A DNA stretch of 34,861 bases. It comes from Bacteroidota bacterium. Lineage in GTDB: Bacteria; Bacteroidota; Ignavibacteria; Palsa-1295. Where the stretch lies: assembly GCA_021825235.1 (NCBI GenBank), contig JAKAIL010000008.1, positions 1 through 34,861 of the forward strand, given 5' to 3'. Shown in pieces: positions 1,403 through 18,683 of this stretch (position 1 is the first letter of the stretch; every line of letters begins with the position of its first letter). The notes beneath the pieces were generated by a model. The model saw only the letters and a list, made by a program, of their open reading frames with translations. It ran no database searches and had not been told where the DNA came from. The position numbers and the translations under genes are program-made.

Positions 1403-4072
1403 ATGCACACGATGAAGCATACTCGTTCCAGTTTTTTTGTTCTGCTGATTTCGATTTTTTCGATTCGTATTGCTCAGGCTCAATACTTTGACCCCTACCG
1501 CTGGATCAACGACCCCTTAGCTATTGCCGATTTAGGGGGGGCGGATAGTGCTCCAATTATGCGAGCGTTCCGACTGGACAATGAATACGGTCCGCTCGAC
1601 ACCGATGGGTATGCCATAATGGCCTCTGATACCGGAGCGGGAATTATACGGCATCTCTGGGCAACGTTTTCTGATGGTGTAGCACCCGATTCCGCACGGC
1701 TTCGATTGTATGTAGATGATTCTCTTTTGATCGATGCAAAAGGCGAGGATTTTTTTCGATTAGCACATGGCCTCATACGCTCGCCATTCGATACGGCAAT
1801 TGCCGGCGGTTTCGATTGCGAGACTCAGATACCCTACAAACATTCGTTCCGGTGGGAGAATGAATATTGCTGGCTCATTCGTAACGCGGAATGGCAGCGA
1901 ATCGATACCACTAAAGCACCACTGGCTTCCCTGAATAGCGATACATTGGTCGCACAACAAACGCGCGCGGAAGCAAACTATTGGAAAACGGATCCATGGA
2001 AAACGGGAACAGATGTTCCATTTAGCGGAACCATAGGTGCTCGGGATACCATGGTATTAGCTGCTCTCTCAGGTCCAGCATACATTGAGGACTTGCATTT
2101 TGCCTTTACATCGCTCGATACCGCTATACTCCACAATTTGTGGCTGGAATGCTACTGGGACCGTTCGCCGAGCCCGAGCATCGATGTTCCCCTCTCCGAT
2201 TTTTTTGGTATTGCGATGGGCGTGCGGTCCATTCGATCATTCCGATTTCTCGTGGATTCCGCACACTCCACGCTCGATTGTTATTTTCCGATGCCGTTTC
2301 GCTCGAATGCGAAGCTGCTTATGATAAATCGGAATAGCAGTCCTGCCGCGTGGACAGGAGCGGTTCGCTATGAACCCACGCCCTGGAACCGGCATTTCGG
2401 ATACTTCGGGACGCAATTTCACGTGACGCCGGAGATTGCGGTGGGACGGTTGCATCCCCTGCTCCACGCGAAAGGGAGCGGACGTTACATCGGTGCTAAC
2501 TTTAATTACCCCGATTCGAAATTTTTTACCCCCGTCTTTATGGAAGGGGATGGATACATGATGGTTGATTCCATGCCCGTTTCGCCAAATGTAAACGCGT
2601 GGCCCTCCATCGAATATTCGGGGACGGAGGACTACTGCAATTCCGGCTGGTATTTTTCGAACGACAGCGCGTTCTCACTTCCGTTTGGGGGCTGCCCCAT
2701 TCGCTGGCCTACGATGTATCGGTTCCATATTGACGATCCGTATAATTATTCCAGCTCCATCGACATAGATTGGGGACATGGGTTTTTCAATGATTATACG
2801 ACGACGTACCGGACCACCGCATTCTACTATACGTCCTGGATCCCATTTTATCCGTCGTCCGATACTATCATCGCAGGAAATACCTGGACGATTACCGGTG
2901 CCGGCTACGCGCCGGACACCAGTATAACTGCTCTACTGGATGCAGACACGATCTATCGGGGACAGGCCGAGGCGGACGGTTCCATTGGCTTCAAACTTCT
3001 CGTTCCAACCTCCTGGCCGGTTGGCGATCATACCCTTTCAATCAATGGCCTCGAAAAACCGGAACGAATCACGGTGCTCGCTGCCCCGAAGCTACTCTAT
3101 GTGCAGGATACCGCAAACCGCCATTTTAGCGAGCGTGATTCCATCGAGCTCCGTGGATATGGATTCAACCCAGGCGAGCTGCTAACCGTAATGCTTGGCG
3201 ATACGATATTCCCGGCCCCTTCCACGATTGTAACAGACACCGACGGAGTCTTTCGAACCAAAATATTCCTTCCATGGGTACCAGAGGGATATTATCATGT
3301 GTATGCCAAGCGGCTTTCCGGCATGATTGTAACCTCGGATTCCAGTTTGTTCGTAACTCGCACGCTGAATTATGAATTTGAGGATCTGCCGATGACGGGC
3401 GGAGCATTTTATAGCTATGTTTCGCCGCAATGGAGTCAGGGTGCCATCGCCTTCTGTAATGGGAACTGGAAACGTGGCAGCGAATTCGATTTTACATTCC
3501 AGGTTCCCTTCGCCGATTCCTTTGCCGCGACCGTGTTCGGAGTCTCCAGCGATCGCTACGGAATCTATCGGACTTATATTGATGGAACCGATATGGGAGT
3601 GTATGATTGGTTCCGGAATCAGCCATGGGATGTGCTGACCCGAGACTCCAGTAATCTTTCACCAATTTGGCTCGATAAAGGCCAGCATCTCATCCGGTTC
3701 GTAAATGAAGGCTGGGATTCCGGTGCTGTCGAATATTCGGTGGCGCCGGATAATCTTCATCTCCGTCCGTTATCGAGTTCCTCGGGATCTGTTTTGGATG
3801 TAACGCCAACCATTCCAGCGAAGATGCCGCTGGTAGCGTTTCCCGATCCGTTGGACCAATTGGTCCTTTCTATTTCCGGAATACCGGATTCAGCGGCTAC
3901 CATTCCTGCAATTCTGTATAACGAACTCGGAAAACGAGTGCTTCAAACGTTCCTGCTGCCCGAAAGTGGAGTGCGAACACTGTACATTCCTTCACTTCCG
4001 AATGGTTCCTATTGGCTGAGTTTACAATTCTCCAGTGGTCGGCAGGTGATACCCTTCCAATTACATCGGTAA
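1403..4072 (+). CDS. secreted DUF2961 (glycoside hydrolase family 172-like) protein with C-terminal sorting-like domain
   Basis: Signal peptide; EGDGYMMVDSMPVSPNVNAWPSIEYSGTEDYCNSGWYF and QIPYKHSFRW motifs typical of DUF2961; C-terminal PSLPNGSYWLSLQFSSGRQVIPFQL. The ORF track starts at GTG 1388; ATG 1403 or 1412 is more likely. Confidence 0.85.
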   Translation: MHTMKHTRSSFFVLLISIFSIRIAQAQYFDPYRWINDPLAIADLGGADSAPIMRAFRLDNEYGPLDTDGYAIMASDTGAGIIRHLWATFSDGVAPDSARLRLYVDDSLLIDAKGEDFFRLAHGLIRSPFDTAIAGGFDCETQIPYKHSFRWENEYCWLIRNAEWQRIDTTKAPLASLNSDTLVAQQTRAEANYWKTDPWKTGTDVPFSGTIGARDTMVLAALSGPAYIEDLHFAFTSLDTAILHNLWLECYWDRSPSPSIDVPLSDFFGIAMGVRSIRSFRFLVDSAHSTLDCYFPMPFRSNAKLLMINRNSSPAAWTGAVRYEPTPWNRHFGYFGTQFHVTPEIAVGRLHPLLHAKGSGRYIGANFNYPDSKFFTPVFMEGDGYMMVDSMPVSPNVNAWPSIEYSGTEDYCNSGWYFSNDSAFSLPFGGCPIRWPTMYRFHIDDPYNYSSSIDIDWGHGFFNDYTTTYRTTAFYYTSWIPFYPSSDTIIAGNTWTITGAGYAPDTSITALLDADTIYRGQAEADGSIGFKLLVPTSWPVGDHTLSINGLEKPERITVLAAPKLLYVQDTANRHFSERDSIELRGYGFNPGELLTVMLGDTIFPAPSTIVTDTDGVFRTKIFLPWVPEGYYHVYAKRLSGMIVTSDSSLFVTRTLNYEFEDLPMTGGAFYSYVSPQWSQGAIAFCNGNWKRGSEFDFTFQVPFADSFAATVFGVSSDRYGIYRTYIDGTDMGVYDWFRNQPWDVLTRDSSNLSPIWLDKGQHLIRFVNEGWDSGAVEYSVAPDNLHLRPLSSSSGSVLDVTPTIPAKMPLVAFPDPLDQLVLSISGIPDSAATIPAILYNELGKRVLQTFLLPESGVRTLYIPSLPNGSYWLSLQFSSGRQVIPFQLHR

Positions 4073-12356: not shown

Positions 12357-15300
12357 ATGCAAATCACTCGACGATTTACCAAGGCAGGCACAAGCCCCTT
12401 CGAGCAATTTCAGTACACGAAGCGCGCCAGCGTGCTCCGAAACCCCGATGGAAAACCCATCTTCAATATGGAGGACATCGAGGTGCCGAAGCACTGGTCG
12501 CAGGTGGCGACGGATATTCTCGCGCAGAAATATTTCCGGCGCGCCGGCGTTCCGCAGATGGACGCCTTCGGCACGCCGCTCCGCGATAAGAAGGGCGAAG
12601 TGATCACCGGCCCGGAACGATCGCTCAAGGAGGTTGCGCACCGCCTGGCCGGTTGCTGGCGCGCGTGGGGCGAAGAGCACGGCTACTTCAACACGAAGGA
12701 GGACGCACAGGCTTTCTACGATGAAATCGCCTATATGATTTTGCGCCAGATGGCCGCGCCGAACTCGCCGCAGTGGTTCAATACCGGCATTGCGTGGGCC
12801 TATGGCATTACCGGTACGCCGCAGGGGCACTGGTATGTCGATCCGAAGACGGGCGAGATGACGCGCTCGCAGGATGCTTATACCCATCCGCAGCCGCACG
12901 CGTGTTTCATCCAGTCGCTCAAGGATGATATGCTGAACGAAGGCGGCATCTTCGATCTTGTAACGCGAGAGGCGCGCATCTTTAAGTATGGTTCCGGTAC
13001 CGGAACGAATTTTAGCTCGCTTCGCGCCGAGGGCGAACGCGTCTCTGGCGGCGGCGCTGCTTCGGGCGTGATGAGCTTCCTTAAGATCAACGACCGTGCG
13101 GCCGGTTCCGTAAAATCCGGCGGAACGACCCGCCGTGCTGCCAAGATGGTGATCCTCGATATTGATCATCCCGACATCGAGCAGTTCATCGAGTGGAAAG
13201 CTTTGGAAGAGCAGAAAGTCGCCGCGCTTGTGGCGGGATCGAAAGTCTGCGATCTCTTTCTCAACACGATTATGAAGATCGCGGCCGATGGCGGCACGGA
13301 CCGCAAGGAGAACCACGATCTCGACATCGCGATCAAAAAGGCGCTTGCGCGTGGCGTGCCAATGAACTACATCGCGCGATGCCTTCGTATGGTCGATATG
13401 GGCTATGACCACATTGACTTCAAGACCTTCGACACCCATTACGAAGGCGAAGCCTACCAGACCGTGAGCGGACAGAACTCCAACAACTCCGTCCGTGTGA
13501 CGAACGACTTCATGCATGCCGTCCTTACCGATGGTGAGTGGACCTTAAAGTTCCGAACGACCGGTAAAGCCGCAAAAAAGCTCCCGGCGAAAAAGCTGTG
13601 GGAAGAGATTACAATGAGCGCGTGGGCTTCCGCCGACCCGGGACTCCAGTTCGACACGACGATCAACGAATGGCACACCTGCCCGAACGATGGCCGCATC
13701 AACGCGAGCAATCCGTGCTCCGAGTACATGTTCCTGGATGACACGGCGTGCAACCTGGCCTCGCTCAATCTCGCCTATTTCTATGATGACGAGACCGGCG
13801 CATTCAAGCTCGAAGATTACAAGCATGCGATTCGTTTGTGGACGATCGTGCTCGAAATCTCTGTGCTCATGGCGCAGTTCCCATCGCGCGCCATCGCACA
13901 GGGCAGCTACGATTATCGCACGCTCGGCTTGGGCTACGCAAATCTCGGGACTATCCTCATGACGGCCGGCATCCCGTACGATTCGCCGCAGGCGCTCGCC
14001 ATTGCCGGTGCGCTCTCGGCCATCATGACGGGGGAATCCTACGCGGCCAGTGCAGAGATGGCAAAAGATTTGGGAGCGTTCCCACGCTACGAAGCGAACC
14101 GGGAACCGATGTTGCGCGTCATTCGCAATCATAAGCTTGCGGCGTACAATGCTACGCCGGAACGCTATGAGCAGCTCACCATCAAGCCGATGGGCATTCA
14201 GCCGGAACACGCGCCGGAAGATCTGCTGCAGGCTGCGCGGGACGCGTGGGACCGCGCTCTTGCGCTCGGCGAGAAACATGGTTACCGCAATGCGCAGGTT
14301 ACCGTTATCGCACCGACTGGAACCATCGGCCTCGTGATGGATTGCGACACCACCGGCATCGAACCGGATTTCGCTATCGTGAAATTCAAGAAGCTGGCGG
14401 GCGGAGGGTATTTCAAGATCGTCAATCAATCGGTACACAAGGCGCTCACGAAGCTGGGATATTCCGAAAAGCAGATCGAGGAGATCGAGAAATATTCGAA
14501 GGGACATGGCACGCTCGTCGGATGCCCGCATATCAATCGCGGATCGCTCAAGGCGAACGGATTTACCGACGAAAAGATCGACGAGATCGAAAAGCTCTGC
14601 GATAACGTCTTCGATCTCAAATTCGCCTTCAACAAGTGGACGCTCGGCGAGGACTTCTGCGTGAAGCTTGGCTTTACGCCGTCACAGCTCGAGGATGCGA
14701 ACTTCAACATGCTTGCAGCGCTTGGTTACACGCGCGAAGATATCCAGGCTGCGAACGATTACGTGTGTGGAACGATGACGCTCGAAGGTGCGCCCGGACT
14801 GAAGGACGAACACCTTCCTATTTTCGATTGCGCGAACAAGTGCGGCAAGTATGGAACCCGATATATTCCCTACGAAGCGCACATTCGCATGATGGCCGCG
14901 GCGCAGCCTTTCATTTCGGGAGCGATTTCGAAGACCATCAACATGCCGAACGAGGCGACGGTGAACGACGTCTCGAAAGCCTATTTCGATTCGTGGAAAC
15001 TTTGTTTGAAGGCCAACGCGCTCTACCGCGATGGGAGCAAGCTTTCGCAGCCGCTCAATGCCTCGAACGAGGATGCCGACCTTGCCGAACAAGTCCTCTT
15101 CTCCGATTCCGAAGATGAATCGCTCGAGACCATCGACGCGGCAAAGCTGCACCAGCTTATGGAAGCCGAAGCCGTTGCGATGCCACCGGAACTTCGCCGC
15201 CATAAACTTCCCACCAAGCGCAAAGGATGGCTCCGCGAGGCCGTCGTGGGCGGACACAAAGTGTATCTCCGCACCGGCGAATACGAGGACGGAACCTTAG

Positions 15301-15896
15301 GCGAGATCTTTATCGACATGTATAAAGAGGGCGCATCGTTCAAGGGACTGATGAACTGCTTCGCCGTGCTTGCTTCGAAGGCGCTGCAATACGGCGTGCC
15401 GCTTGAAGAGTTGGTGGATACCTTCACCTTCACGCGCTTCGAACCTGCCGGTGCTGTGCAGGGACACGAAGCCATCAAGAATGCCACGAGCATTCTGGAT
15501 TACGTCTTCCGCGCGCTCGGCTACGAATATCTTGGCCGCCAGGATTTCGTGCATGTGAAAGCCGTGGACGACAACCACGATCATGGCATAGGGGCGCATG
15601 GCAATGCGCCCGGCAATGCGCCCGCGGTTGGGGAATCCACCGATGCCGTCGCCCAGCGCATCATCAGCGAGGACGACAACCTGGAACGCCTCCGCAGTGA
15701 ACGAGTGGAAGAACCTGTGATGATGTCGGAGTCAAAACCCTCCACTATCCACTCTCCACTATCCACTCTGCGTAACGAAGCCCGAAGCAAAGGCTACACC
15801 GGCGAGCAATGCTCCGCCTGCGGCTCCATGCGCGTGAAGCGCAACGGCGCCTGCACCGTCTGCGACGATTGCGGGACGACGAGCGGGTGCTCGTGA
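12357..15896 (+). CDS. nrdJ: vitamin B12-dependent (class II) ribonucleoside-diphosphate reductase
   Basis: [43 protein letters not shown]; catalytic core; Cys-rich C-terminus [34 protein letters not shown]. Confidence 0.97.
15591..15611. repeat. palindromic repeat within the nrdJ linker coding sequence (gggcgcat-ggca-atgcgccc)
   Basis: 8-bp perfect stem; similar in style to the intergenic palindromes just downstream of nrdJ. Confidence 0.6.
15742..15769. repeat. 14-bp tandem direct repeat (ccactatccactct x2) within the nrdJ linker coding sequence
   Basis: Two exact tandem copies encoding [10 protein letters not shown]. Confidence 0.75.
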
Positions 15897-15897
15897 G
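15860..15897 (+). repeat. copy 1 of the nrdJ 3'-end repeat (38 nt)
   Basis: 35/38 identical to 16692..16729. Confidence 0.85.
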
Positions 15898-15920
15898 GCA
15901 ATTATGAATTATGAAGGTAG

Positions 15921-16036
15921 GGACGTGCTGCGCACGTCCGGTAGCTCCGGAGGAGCGGCCCATTTGTAGCCCAGGGTGAAGCGAAGCGGAACCCTGGGTT
16001 GCGGAATTATTTTTGGACCATAAGCCCCGGAGGGGC
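15921..16036. repeat. cluster of intergenic palindromic repeats (four hairpins)
   Basis: ggacgtgc-tgc-gcacgtcc; gctcc-gga-ggagc; cccagggt..accctggg; gcccc-gga-ggggc. Confidence 0.75.
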
Positions 16037-16052
16037 GACATAAGTTCGAAGC

Positions 16053-16373
16053 GTGATAGAAGTCAAGGAATATCAAGCACAAAACGGCAAGAATTATTAT
16101 CAGGAGTGGCTTGAAACACTTGACAAATTAACGCTTGCGAAAGTTTTGAAACACGTTCGCAAGTTAAGCAAGGGCCTTGGTCATTTACGCGCTGTCGAAG
16201 GTAAACTATGGGAATTAAAAATAGATTTGGGCCCTGGTTATCGAGTCTATTTTTATCGAAAGGGGAATGAGCTGATCGTCTTGCTTGCCGGGTCGGATAA
16301 AAGCCAGCAGGAGCGAACTTTTAATCTTGCGCGGCGGCTTATAAAGAAAATAGAAAAGGAAGAGAGCGCATAA
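16053..16373 (+). CDS. type II toxin, RelE/ParE superfamily (addiction-module killer / HigB-like)
   Basis: GPGYRVYFYRKGNELIVLLAGSDKSQQ motif; GTG start; 1-nt overlap (TAATG) with the next ORF. Confidence 0.85.
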   Translation: MIEVKEYQAQNGKNYYQEWLETLDKLTLAKVLKHVRKLSKGLGHLRAVEGKLWELKIDLGPGYRVYFYRKGNELIVLLAGSDKSQQERTFNLARRLIKKIEKEESA

Positions 16374-16690
16374 TGCCTTTCATATCGCATGAAGAGACGA
16401 TGAAGAAGCACCTCGCCGATCCCGTCGTGGCGGCGGAGTATTTGAATGCATGCATTGAGGATGGCAACGACTGGCTTATTGCCGATGCGCTAAAAATCAT
16501 CTCCGAACTTCATGGCATGAAAAAGTCTCGCTCGCTCGTTCAGCAGATCGAAAAGTTAAAAGCCGGATTAGCTCCGGCCAAAATTCGCCTTCGTTTTGAA
16601 GCGGTACCGAAACGCAACGGACATAAAGCGCCATTGAAACCAAGCCCTCTCCGCGCACCTGCCACGAAGCGGGCGAGGAAAACGGCGTGA
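16373..16690 (+). CDS. cognate antitoxin-like protein (addiction-module antidote family, apparently lacking a full HTH)
   Basis: HLADPVVAAEYLNACIEDGNDWLIADALKIISELHGM matches the family N-terminus; coupled to the toxin gene. Confidence 0.7.
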   Translation: MPFISHEETMKKHLADPVVAAEYLNACIEDGNDWLIADALKIISELHGMKKSRSLVQQIEKLKAGLAPAKIRLRFEAVPKRNGHKAPLKPSPLRAPATKRARKTA

Positions 16691-16691
16691 A

Positions 16692-16729
16692 CTGCGACGA
16701 CTGCGGGACGACGAGCGGATGCTCGTAAG
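16692..16729 (+). repeat. copy 2 of the nrdJ 3'-end (encodes [11 protein letters not shown]-stop)
   Basis: ctgcgacgaCtgcgggacgacgagcggAtgctcgtAag; all three differences from nrdJ are synonymous in the nrdJ frame (GAT/GAC, GGG/GGA, TGA/TAA). Confidence 0.85.
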
Positions 16730-16755
16730 TTGCGGCGGCCCCATGAGAGTAGCAC

Positions 16756-16785
16756 AGAGGCCGTTGCAATTCGGCCTCTTTTTAT
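16756..16785 (+). terminator. rho-independent terminator
   Basis: agaggccg-ttgcaatt-cggcctct perfect 8-bp stem followed by ttttat. Confidence 0.85.
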
Positions 16786-16798
16786 AGCATTAGATATC

Positions 16799-17767
16799 AT
16801 GACCAGTCAAGAAATTGAATATTGGGCATTTAAAGTAATCGAATCGGTAACATCGAAACATCGGGTTGAGGATTCGAGGATTGAGTTGAAGGCCGACTGG
16901 CCTGAAGACTATAATAAGATAGCACGCAGAATTGCTGGACTCGCTAACGCGGCGGCTGGTGAACCTGTAATGCTGGTTTTAGGACTGTCGGAAGAATCAG
17001 GAGCAACAGGAGTGAATAGTGCTATTGATCTTGCGGATTGGTGGCCTCGCGTAACTTCTGAATTTGAAATGATGCATCCGCGAGTAAAGGATCTTCGGAT
17101 TCGAGCCCAGGATAAAGAGCTTGTAATTCTTTTTTTTGAAACGGACACGGCACCTTATGTAGTGAAGAATGCGGCGTACGGAACCACCTCAACCGGGGTC
17201 AGTTTAGAAGTTCCATGGCGTGAAGGTACGTCGATTCGGAGCGCGCGTCGGGCCGATTTGCTTAAACTATTGGTACCAAAACCACGGGCACCAAAAATAG
17301 AAATCATACGAGCAAGTTTTAGAGAGAAGATTGGTAGCTATGGGGAGCTTCGCATTGGATATGATTCGCAGTTGACATTATACGTTGCTCCTTCTGACCA
17401 GGATACGGTAACTTTTCCAATGTTTAAGACAGATGGATATTTCGAATTCGAAAGTGGCAGGACAGCCCCAATCACAATTCGAAATTTTGATGTTGAAAAA
17501 TCAGAAGGAGTCGCACAAGTCACAAAAACATCCAGCGGACTGACTTTCACAGGCCCTGGAGGGTTTTCCATGTATGTATATGCAAGGGCGTTGCCCGACA
17601 TTGAAAACATCTCCCCATCGATGCGGCTAGTAATTCGCTTTTTTGAGGCTGGCTCAACGTTGCCCGTTATCGCAACCCGAGAGTTCAAGAGCGGATTGAC
17701 CAAGGAACAATTGCTTCGGGAGATTGCCAAAGTTGCAGAATCTAAGACAGAGAGCAAAGCAACATAA
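16799..17767 (+). CDS. AlbA_2 / Schlafen-like putative ATP-binding domain protein
   Basis: RIELKADWPEDYNKIARRIAGLANAAAGEPVMLVLGLSEESG resembles AlbA_2 N-termini. ATG 16799 preferred over TTG 16730. Confidence 0.6.
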   Translation: MTSQEIEYWAFKVIESVTSKHRVEDSRIELKADWPEDYNKIARRIAGLANAAAGEPVMLVLGLSEESGATGVNSAIDLADWWPRVTSEFEMMHPRVKDLRIRAQDKELVILFFETDTAPYVVKNAAYGTTSTGVSLEVPWREGTSIRSARRADLLKLLVPKPRAPKIEIIRASFREKIGSYGELRIGYDSQLTLYVAPSDQDTVTFPMFKTDGYFEFESGRTAPITIRNFDVEKSEGVAQVTKTSSGLTFTGPGGFSMYVYARALPDIENISPSMRLVIRFFEAGSTLPVIATREFKSGLTKEQLLREIAKVAESKTESKAT

Positions 17768-17795
17768 TTTGAGAGACAAGATAGAAGTTTGGCTT

Positions 17796-18683
17796 TTAGG
17801 ACTTCGCTATTTGCGCATCATATAGCTTATAGCCTTTGGTCATTACTTTGAAATTCTTTCTCTCGTAGCCCTCGTCCTTAATTAGATCCTTGTATTCAAG
17901 CTCACGGAGGGCTTCGTCTAGTTCTGCGTCCTTCCGGGGTTCATCATGCGCTACAAATTGTTTACCATTAGTTTGAATAACCTGGCCGCCGATGAACTCC
18001 ATTCGATAAATGGTGCCATAAGGATCTTGACATGCCTCAGCTAAAATGTTTCTTGCGGTCTCGCTAAGAGTCTCCTCGGTCTCTCGACTGGACTCTATCG
18101 TTGAATACTGGATTGTATCTGAGAAGAAAGTCACTAGTGCACTCTGAATCGATTGCTGGATGTACTCGTTCGAATTCAAGAGTATCTCGAGGTGTTCCCG
18201 AAACTTCTCTTTCAGATCTGAGACGTTTTCGTACTCAGCGAACAGTCCGCGATATGGACTATTTTCTTGCATGCAGTCATTCTTGAATTCCCGGACCTGT
18301 TGAACCTGTCCTAAGTCTGCATTTGTAGGTGTTGCGGCCGAGGAGAAGTATATCATTGCAGGTTTACCGCTATCGATATGAGTACGAATCTCCTCAATCG
18401 TACCACTCGGATACTCGCCAGTAGGCGACCCAACCTTCGACCAAAAAATTGCCACAAGGATATCGCAGTGCTCAAGCATCTGCTTAATAATTATTGCTTG
18501 TGCTCGTTCACCAGATACAGGAGCGGTGCTAGATTCCCAGCGCCGCGGCAAAAGTATTAGCTTGCGATGTAGCGAGTTTGAGTAGTTCCATCGATGAAGC
18601 ACATTCTCGATTGCTGTGCGCTCCTCCATCACATCTGAAGGCGACGCGATCATTACCTCAATTGTAATTGATCCGTATGCCAT
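17796..18683 (-). CDS. DUF4062 domain-containing protein
   Basis: IEVMIASPSDVMEERTAIENVLHRWN...LPRRWESSTAPVSGERAQAIIIKQMLEHCDILVAIFWSKVGSPTGEYPSGTIEEI is typical of DUF4062. Confidence 0.85.
   Translation of the reverse strand: MAYGSITIEVMIASPSDVMEERTAIENVLHRWNYSNSLHRKLILLPRRWESSTAPVSGERAQAIIIKQMLEHCDILVAIFWSKVGSPTGEYPSGTIEEIRTHIDSGKPAMIYFSSAATPTNADLGQVQQVREFKNDCMQENSPYRGLFAEYENVSDLKEKFREHLEILLNSNEYIQQSIQSALVTFFSDTIQYSTIESSRETEETLSETARNILAEACQDPYGTIYRMEFIGGQVIQTNGKQFVAHDEPRKDAELDEALRELEYKDLIKDEGYERKNFKVMTKGYKLYDAQIAKS

Follow-up and report, generated by a model that had tools for sequence, protein, structure and literature searches.

It is an old question how chromosomal toxin-antitoxin (TA) pairs, with neither transposase nor integrase, get into genomes, and the DNA examined here raises it at the end of a housekeeping gene. 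The window, by which we mean the whole 34,861-nt stretch of a Bacteroidota contig that was analysed, contains the end of nrdJ twice, with a TA pair between the two copies. We ask whether this arrangement is an insertion, which of the two gene ends is the older, how often TA pairs are found in such surroundings, and by what route they may have come there.

A second nrdJ end behind a toxin-antitoxin pair

The gene whose end is duplicated is recognised as nrdJ both by NF005736 and by the Pfam models Ribonuc_red_lgC, Ribonuc_red_2_N and TSCPD. Its last 38 nt (15860-15897) match the distal copy at 35 of 38 positions, while the best 38-mer match in 200 trials of a 2-kb first-order Markov null reached at most 23/38, which rules out chance similarity. 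The runner-up inside the window is likewise 23/38, and a search of the whole genome finds the repeat in these two places only, with no third copy. An earlier note, made from the sequence alone, had described a 38-nt repeat with three differences, all synonymous, and a strong terminator behind the distal copy. Both descriptions hold: the differences fall in the same codons (GAT/GAC, GGG/GGA, TGA/TAA), and the terminator lies at 16756-16779 with a T-run behind it. Both copies also share AACGGCG about 56 nt 5' of the stop codon, followed by a deletion of about 7 nt, and we read the short match as what is left of a tail copy that probably began further 5' than 38 nt.

Table 1. Features at the duplicated nrdJ end (positions in the window)
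Feature	Positions	Strand	Basis
nrdJ, B12-dependent ribonucleotide reductase, 1179 aa, end duplicated	12357..15896	+	NF005736, 1880 bits
Proximal nrdJ tail, at present the functional one; unit of ~60 nt that recurs in G003	15837..15897	+	repeat; G003/G007 alignment
Palindromic intergenic repeats in the gap between nrdJ and the toxin gene	15919..16040	.	sequence; similar ones in G005
Toxin gene, HI1419-upstream / Gp49 (RelE/HigB-like), 106 aa	16053..16373	+	TIGR02683, Gp49
Putative antitoxin gene, 105 aa	16373..16690	+	partner position; N-terminal half as in G003 cassette 2
Distal nrdJ tail copy	16692..16729	+	35/38 identical; 3' flank matches relatives' empty sites
Intrinsic terminator behind the presumed original nrdJ end	16756..16785	+	8-pair stem and T-run

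The earlier note had placed a RelE/HigB-like TA pair between the copies. A TA pair it is, but of the HI1419 type and with an antitoxin that has no recognised DNA-binding domain. The toxin scores 78.1 bits against TIGR02683 (cut-off 62.85) and 29.4 bits against Gp49, and is 55% identical to the toxin in the second cassette of a relative, G003, described below. The putative antitoxin matches no model in Pfam or NCBIfam, and its first 50 residues are 52% identical to the partner gene in G003 (L033 2515-2763). The window and G003 antitoxins have in common the N-terminal half and short basic C-termini, and both lack a recognised DNA-binding domain; HI1420-type partners at loci elsewhere in the phylum (e.g. 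L317) are longer.

Between tail and cargo the window also contains palindromes (ccggaggagc..., cagggtgaagcgaagcggaaccctg, agccccggaggggc), which occur as well in the relative G005 (L037, reverse complement, 2050-2185), where they stand before the second cassette gene. They look like dispersed REP-type elements. Past the nrdJ terminator, at 16799-18683, the window has AlbA_2/Schlafen and DUF4062-like matches, both sub-threshold. The corresponding DNA holds a GmrSD type IV restriction system in G003 (L033 3491-5170) and, judged from sequence alone, an OLD-like ATPase in G002 (L035 1701-3455) and an AIPR-like protein in G005 (L037 2530-5189, reverse complement), so that the region looks like a defence-gene hot spot.

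Empty and occupied nrdJ sites in relatives

Downstream of nrdJ we read relatives in the same family of the class Ignavibacteria / Kapaibacteria. Three of them, G001, G004 and G006, have a single nrdJ end, that is, an empty site. When the 70 nt after each stop codon were compared by local alignment, the flank behind the distal copy scored 28 for the window against G001, 44 and 39 for G003 against G001 and G004, and 40 for G005 against G006; no shuffle out of 300 equalled any of them, and against the empty sites the proximal flanks did no better than chance. Because it is the distal and not the proximal flanks that match, the DNA that begins just after the proximal stop codon and closes with the distal copy is an insertion at the nrdJ 3' end, which leaves nrdJ intact. 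A homologous flank with a terminator is present in G001 and G003, and in the congeners with empty sites nrdJ runs straight into the flank and terminator seen here after the distal copies. This is the arrangement that the earlier note had proposed looking for, and it supports two of its claims, namely that a TA cassette was captured at the nrdJ 3' end and that the distal copy with its terminator is the original nrdJ tail. Among the relatives read we found neither a TA-free genome with two nrdJ ends nor signs that the distal copy is a recent local duplication. The note had further likened the insert to elements that integrate into gene 3' ends; the anatomy bears the likeness out, but near the locus there is no sign of an integrase, which makes a homologous mechanism more likely than a site-specific one.

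The nrdJ-downstream DNA of G002, G008, G010 and G012 holds no second copy of the nrdJ end, and a search of 391 genomes of the class, which misses copies as short as that in the window, finds further displaced nrdJ tails in G003 and G007 only. No virus carrying the nrdJ tail was found in IMG/VR, nor was a donor species with the exact tail.

Multi-cassette arrays at nrdJ

Other cassettes that end in nrdJ-tail remnants, for which the note had suggested a search, do exist: three in G003, two in G005 and one in G007. In G003 the three stand in series after nrdJ, each closed by a copy of about 60 nt of the nrdJ end that starts 60 nt before the stop codon, at AAGCGCAACGG, and a terminator stands behind the last copy. 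They carry, in turn, a DUF4258 gene with an MqsA-like partner (sub-threshold), an HI1419 toxin with its antitoxin, and a DUF4160 gene with a DUF2442 gene. Of the two cassettes of G005, one has a VOC gene, which is not a TA gene, and the other a DUF2442 gene, and behind each stands a degraded nrdJ end; the DUF2442-like gene (L037, reverse complement, 2155-2475) has lost its stop codon and is fused in frame through the nrdJ tail, ending CGTTSGCS. G007, which belongs to another genus, has one ParE-type pair and then a decayed copy of the nrdJ end. Pfam matches to the cargo comprise Gp49, DUF4258, MqsA-like (below cut-off), DUF4160, DUF2442, ParE and PIN, and the cargo families differ among independently occupied nrdJ sites (HI1419, DUF4258 with MqsA-like, DUF4160 with DUF2442, ParE, VOC).

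Gene-end repeats around other TA loci

TA loci of the family were fetched blind to repeats and scored as flanked when one repeat copy lay on either side within 1.5 kb. Diverged direct repeats flank 4 of 14 TIGR02683 (HI1419) loci and 9 of 30 ParE loci (RelE, ParE and HI1419 together, 13/44), as well as 22 of 39 VapC/PIN loci, or 20 of the 31 where both flanks are complete. Over all sampled TA matches in the family this amounts to 35/83, about four in ten, a count in which some matches share one array and a few flanks (L107, L128) consist not of gene ends but of dispersed repeats or ones left unresolved. Control VOC loci are flanked once in 60 (none of the 30 drawn from the class, and of 30 from the same genomes one, by a dispersed repeat; VapC versus VOC, Fisher p=1.6e-10). 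An effect peculiar to nrdJ is ruled out by these surveys. Where the flanking repeats could be resolved they are usually the 3' end of a gene, and the host genes include a 346-aa ORF (L113), a T9SS-type gene (L122) and a 559-aa ORF (L372). In G041, a single-contig 5.2-Mb genome of another family, the end of the adenosylhomocysteinase gene (ahcY) is repeated with VapBC and HepT/MntA-like cargo, and a HicAB-like pair accompanies the repeated end of a response regulator gene; the TA names in these latter cases were read from the sequence unless a model match is cited. Cargo is found on either strand.

The end of a T9SS-type gene is repeated seven times in G001, where two TA pairs are interspersed with these units, and a scan of 0.8 Mb of that genome blind to TA genes yielded a single clear gene-tail array, which contains two TA pairs. 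The window's own genome carries a VapBC cassette between T9SS-type tails at both L353 and L356, and an 809-nt stretch that takes in the whole unit is 82.7% identical at the two loci. To judge from this, tails of one family that occur on many genes may let cassettes move between loci.

Divergence between the tail copies

We compared the tails in trimmed alignments of 24 copy pairs, of which those from the same array are not fully independent and to which distal decay adds noise. As a rule the two copies cease to resemble each other at the stop codon: the median overrun is 0 nt, and the resemblance stops between -11 and +7 in 22 of the 24 pairs and at +21 and +80 in the others. Such a boundary is expected if the copies are alleles of different species. 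The differences fall on first, second and third codon positions in the ratio 37/36/101 (n=174), a third-position share of 0.58, and equal use of the positions (1/3) is rejected (p=2e-11). If instead the gene end had been duplicated, with the distal copy drifting freely and the proximal one changing only synonymously, the share could not rise above 0.5, a ceiling that is exceeded with modest significance (p=0.02). The excess is pronounced at L372 (2/0/12), whose 171-nt tail has 13 synonymous codon changes and 1 non-synonymous one; the response regulator of G041 (2/4/3) and ahcY copy 2 (4/6/8) have no strong bias. The simplest account, for which the evidence is moderate, would be that the two copies are the ends of working orthologs from two species. 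For a 737-aa ORF at L341, the sole ortholog compared, that of G001, has an unrelated end, and the donor was not traced. A tree of ahcY tails places copy 3 of G041 outside its own gene, but several relatives yielded no tail for it and one row is wrong, and we do not rely on it.

How the cassettes may have arrived

On balance we think it probable that the end of a related species' gene was added together with the TA pair, that the resident end was left downstream, and that addiction keeps the insert in place. Donor DNA consisting of an nrdJ end and a TA pair would find its homology in the conserved coding end of the resident nrdJ and recombine there; nrdJ would then be completed by the tail that came in, and the displaced resident tail and terminator would end up behind the TA pair. 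The proximal tail of the window would thus be the imported copy and the distal tail the resident, original gene end, as the flanks of the empty sites suggest. The right-hand join might be made by homology-facilitated illegitimate recombination; alternatively, a small circle of one TA pair and one tail, excised from an array, could integrate by a single crossover. Direct repeats around the insert would favour its loss by recombination between them, and the TA pair would resist that loss, since a cell would be poisoned once the pair was gone. We infer that this is why mainly TA inserts survive and a VOC insert is rare. Repeated insertion would build the arrays. Two features count against such a course, because random illegitimate joins would not predict them: all G003 copies begin at one and the same 5' point, and the cargo genes end a few nucleotides from the tail copy.

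It is unlikely, in our judgement, that the repeats are instead long target-site duplications made by a transposition-like insertion, with the copies diverging later, as in the model for restriction-modification (RM) systems of Helicobacter. The overall anatomy is identical to the RM 'insertion with long and variable (~100 bp) target duplication' (PMC3031569, PMC3874152), and distal copies do decay at some loci (G007, ahcY copy 2). A target duplication, however, needs to end only somewhere past the stop codon, yet nearly all 24 pairs end at it; the third-position share passes the ceiling set by duplication and drift; and we noticed neither common inverted ends nor a transposase.

An integron-like site-specific system, quite improbable in our view, would have circular cassettes use the tail as attachment site under a recombinase encoded elsewhere, regenerating the gene end at each insertion. 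It would fit G003, where the 60-nt unit begins at the same point in all three cassettes, and it would also fit the compact cargo that runs up to the next copy, the arrays with 2-7 units and the varied cargo at one site. But the repeat differs with each host gene (nrdJ, ahcY, T9SS-type, L372 ORF) and ranges from 34 to 240 nt with no common core seen, attC core boxes (RYYYAAC/GTTRRRY) are absent from the nrdJ tail alignment by inspection, and no integrase was noticed among the ORFs around the nrdJ arrays inspected.

We give very little credence to a local tandem duplication of the gene end into which unrelated events later brought TA genes. The tail copies do adjoin their parent gene, but relatives with empty sites have one copy and no TA pair, on which ground we reject this course, VOC genes hardly ever lie between such repeats, and the one clear gene-tail array in the G001 scan holds two TA pairs. 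An artefact of assembly or binning is scarcely believable: several of the genomes at least are metagenome-assembled and several TA matches in G000 lie near contig ends, but the copies differ by 3-19%, keep their reading frames and lie inside long contigs of several independent assemblies, and single-contig G041 has the same pattern.

Comparison with known systems

Phages and islands that integrate at gene 3' ends (e.g. e14 at icd) supply a synonymously different gene end and displace the old one, but are much larger and bring an integrase with them, features not seen here. The RM systems inserted with a long target duplication (Nobusato et al. 2000 and Furuta et al. 2010, as summarised in PMC3874152 and PMC3031569) have the same overall anatomy. 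Like these, the cassettes bring an addiction-type pair without a transposase of its own, lie between direct repeats of the target that vary and are long, on the order of 100 bp, and have relatives with a single-copy empty site, here G001, G004 and G006 and at nrdJ, the one locus where empty sites were sought. Their cargo is TA or VOC and includes no restriction-modification system, so that they act alike without being members of that group; they differ further in that what is repeated is in most cases the 3' end of a gene, with the stop codon as its limit, in the allele-like divergence of two species, in the multi-cassette arrays and in the high frequency of TA cargo in one genus.

The mobile ORFs of fungal mitochondria, which duplicate C-terminal ends at atp6, atp9, cox2 and nad3 in Allomyces and Glomus (PMC3630166), have the same order of gene, imported in-frame C-terminal end, cargo ORF and displaced native end, although import is our reading for the bacterial case. 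Their copies, too, diverge largely synonymously, and the native end resembles that of a close relative (PMC3630166). Unlike the bacterial cassettes, they carry a homing endonuclease, by which the target is cut (PMC3630166), whereas here the cargo is a TA pair with RNase-type toxin families and no DNA endonuclease, on a bacterial chromosome. For the T6SS effector-immunity arrays of V. cholerae and for Rhs/CDI orphan tails, homology-facilitated illegitimate recombination has been proposed (PMC5361080); there, as here, a new module arrives at a conserved anchor, the old 3' part is shifted downstream and arrays are built, but the displaced tail is a variable toxin and not a housekeeping gene end whose protein sequence is unchanged. 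Integron cassette arrays also consist of compact one- or two-gene cassettes, mostly TA, with a repeat copy after each; in our case what is repeated is the coding end of a gene and changes from host gene to host gene, and neither an integrase nor attC boxes were seen. In the open-access literature we found no report of TA modules with the gene-end-duplication signature.

The insertion scars described here are abundant (35/83 sampled TA matches in one family); their synonymous differences make them datable, empty sites accompany them, and donor, order and mechanism can therefore now be tested. If the proximal end is indeed foreign, this would offer one explanation of the long target duplications reported for RM systems since 2000, and it would suggest that selection by addiction, and not a special mobility, sets which cargo survives between direct repeats. 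More tentatively, and with the odds somewhat against so broad a view, we speculate that these loci form an enzyme-less system of TA cassettes in which host-gene ends would serve as recombination or docking sites, each cassette would restore the host gene and addiction would prevent loss, giving integron-like arrays and making the 'target duplications' of addiction modules imported gene ends.

Loci beyond the family

The pattern is not universal, since none of 8 TA loci in E. coli K-12 is flanked. HI1419 loci elsewhere in the phylum are flanked in 5 of 25 cases, by repeats that are partly non-coding or parts of other repeats, and given this mixture we do not claim the same mechanism for the wider phylum. 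Non-coding direct repeats of 105-152 nt and about 91% identity enclose HI1419 TA pairs in two further genomes of the phylum (L328 818-969 and 2054-2205; L334 1236-1340 and 2256-2360), and one of these repeats contains a terminator; perhaps this is the same process at non-coding sites. At L317 the TA-flanking repeat (928-1014 and 3139-3225) resembles the start of a recC-like gene, a possible duplication of a 5' end and not of a 3' end.
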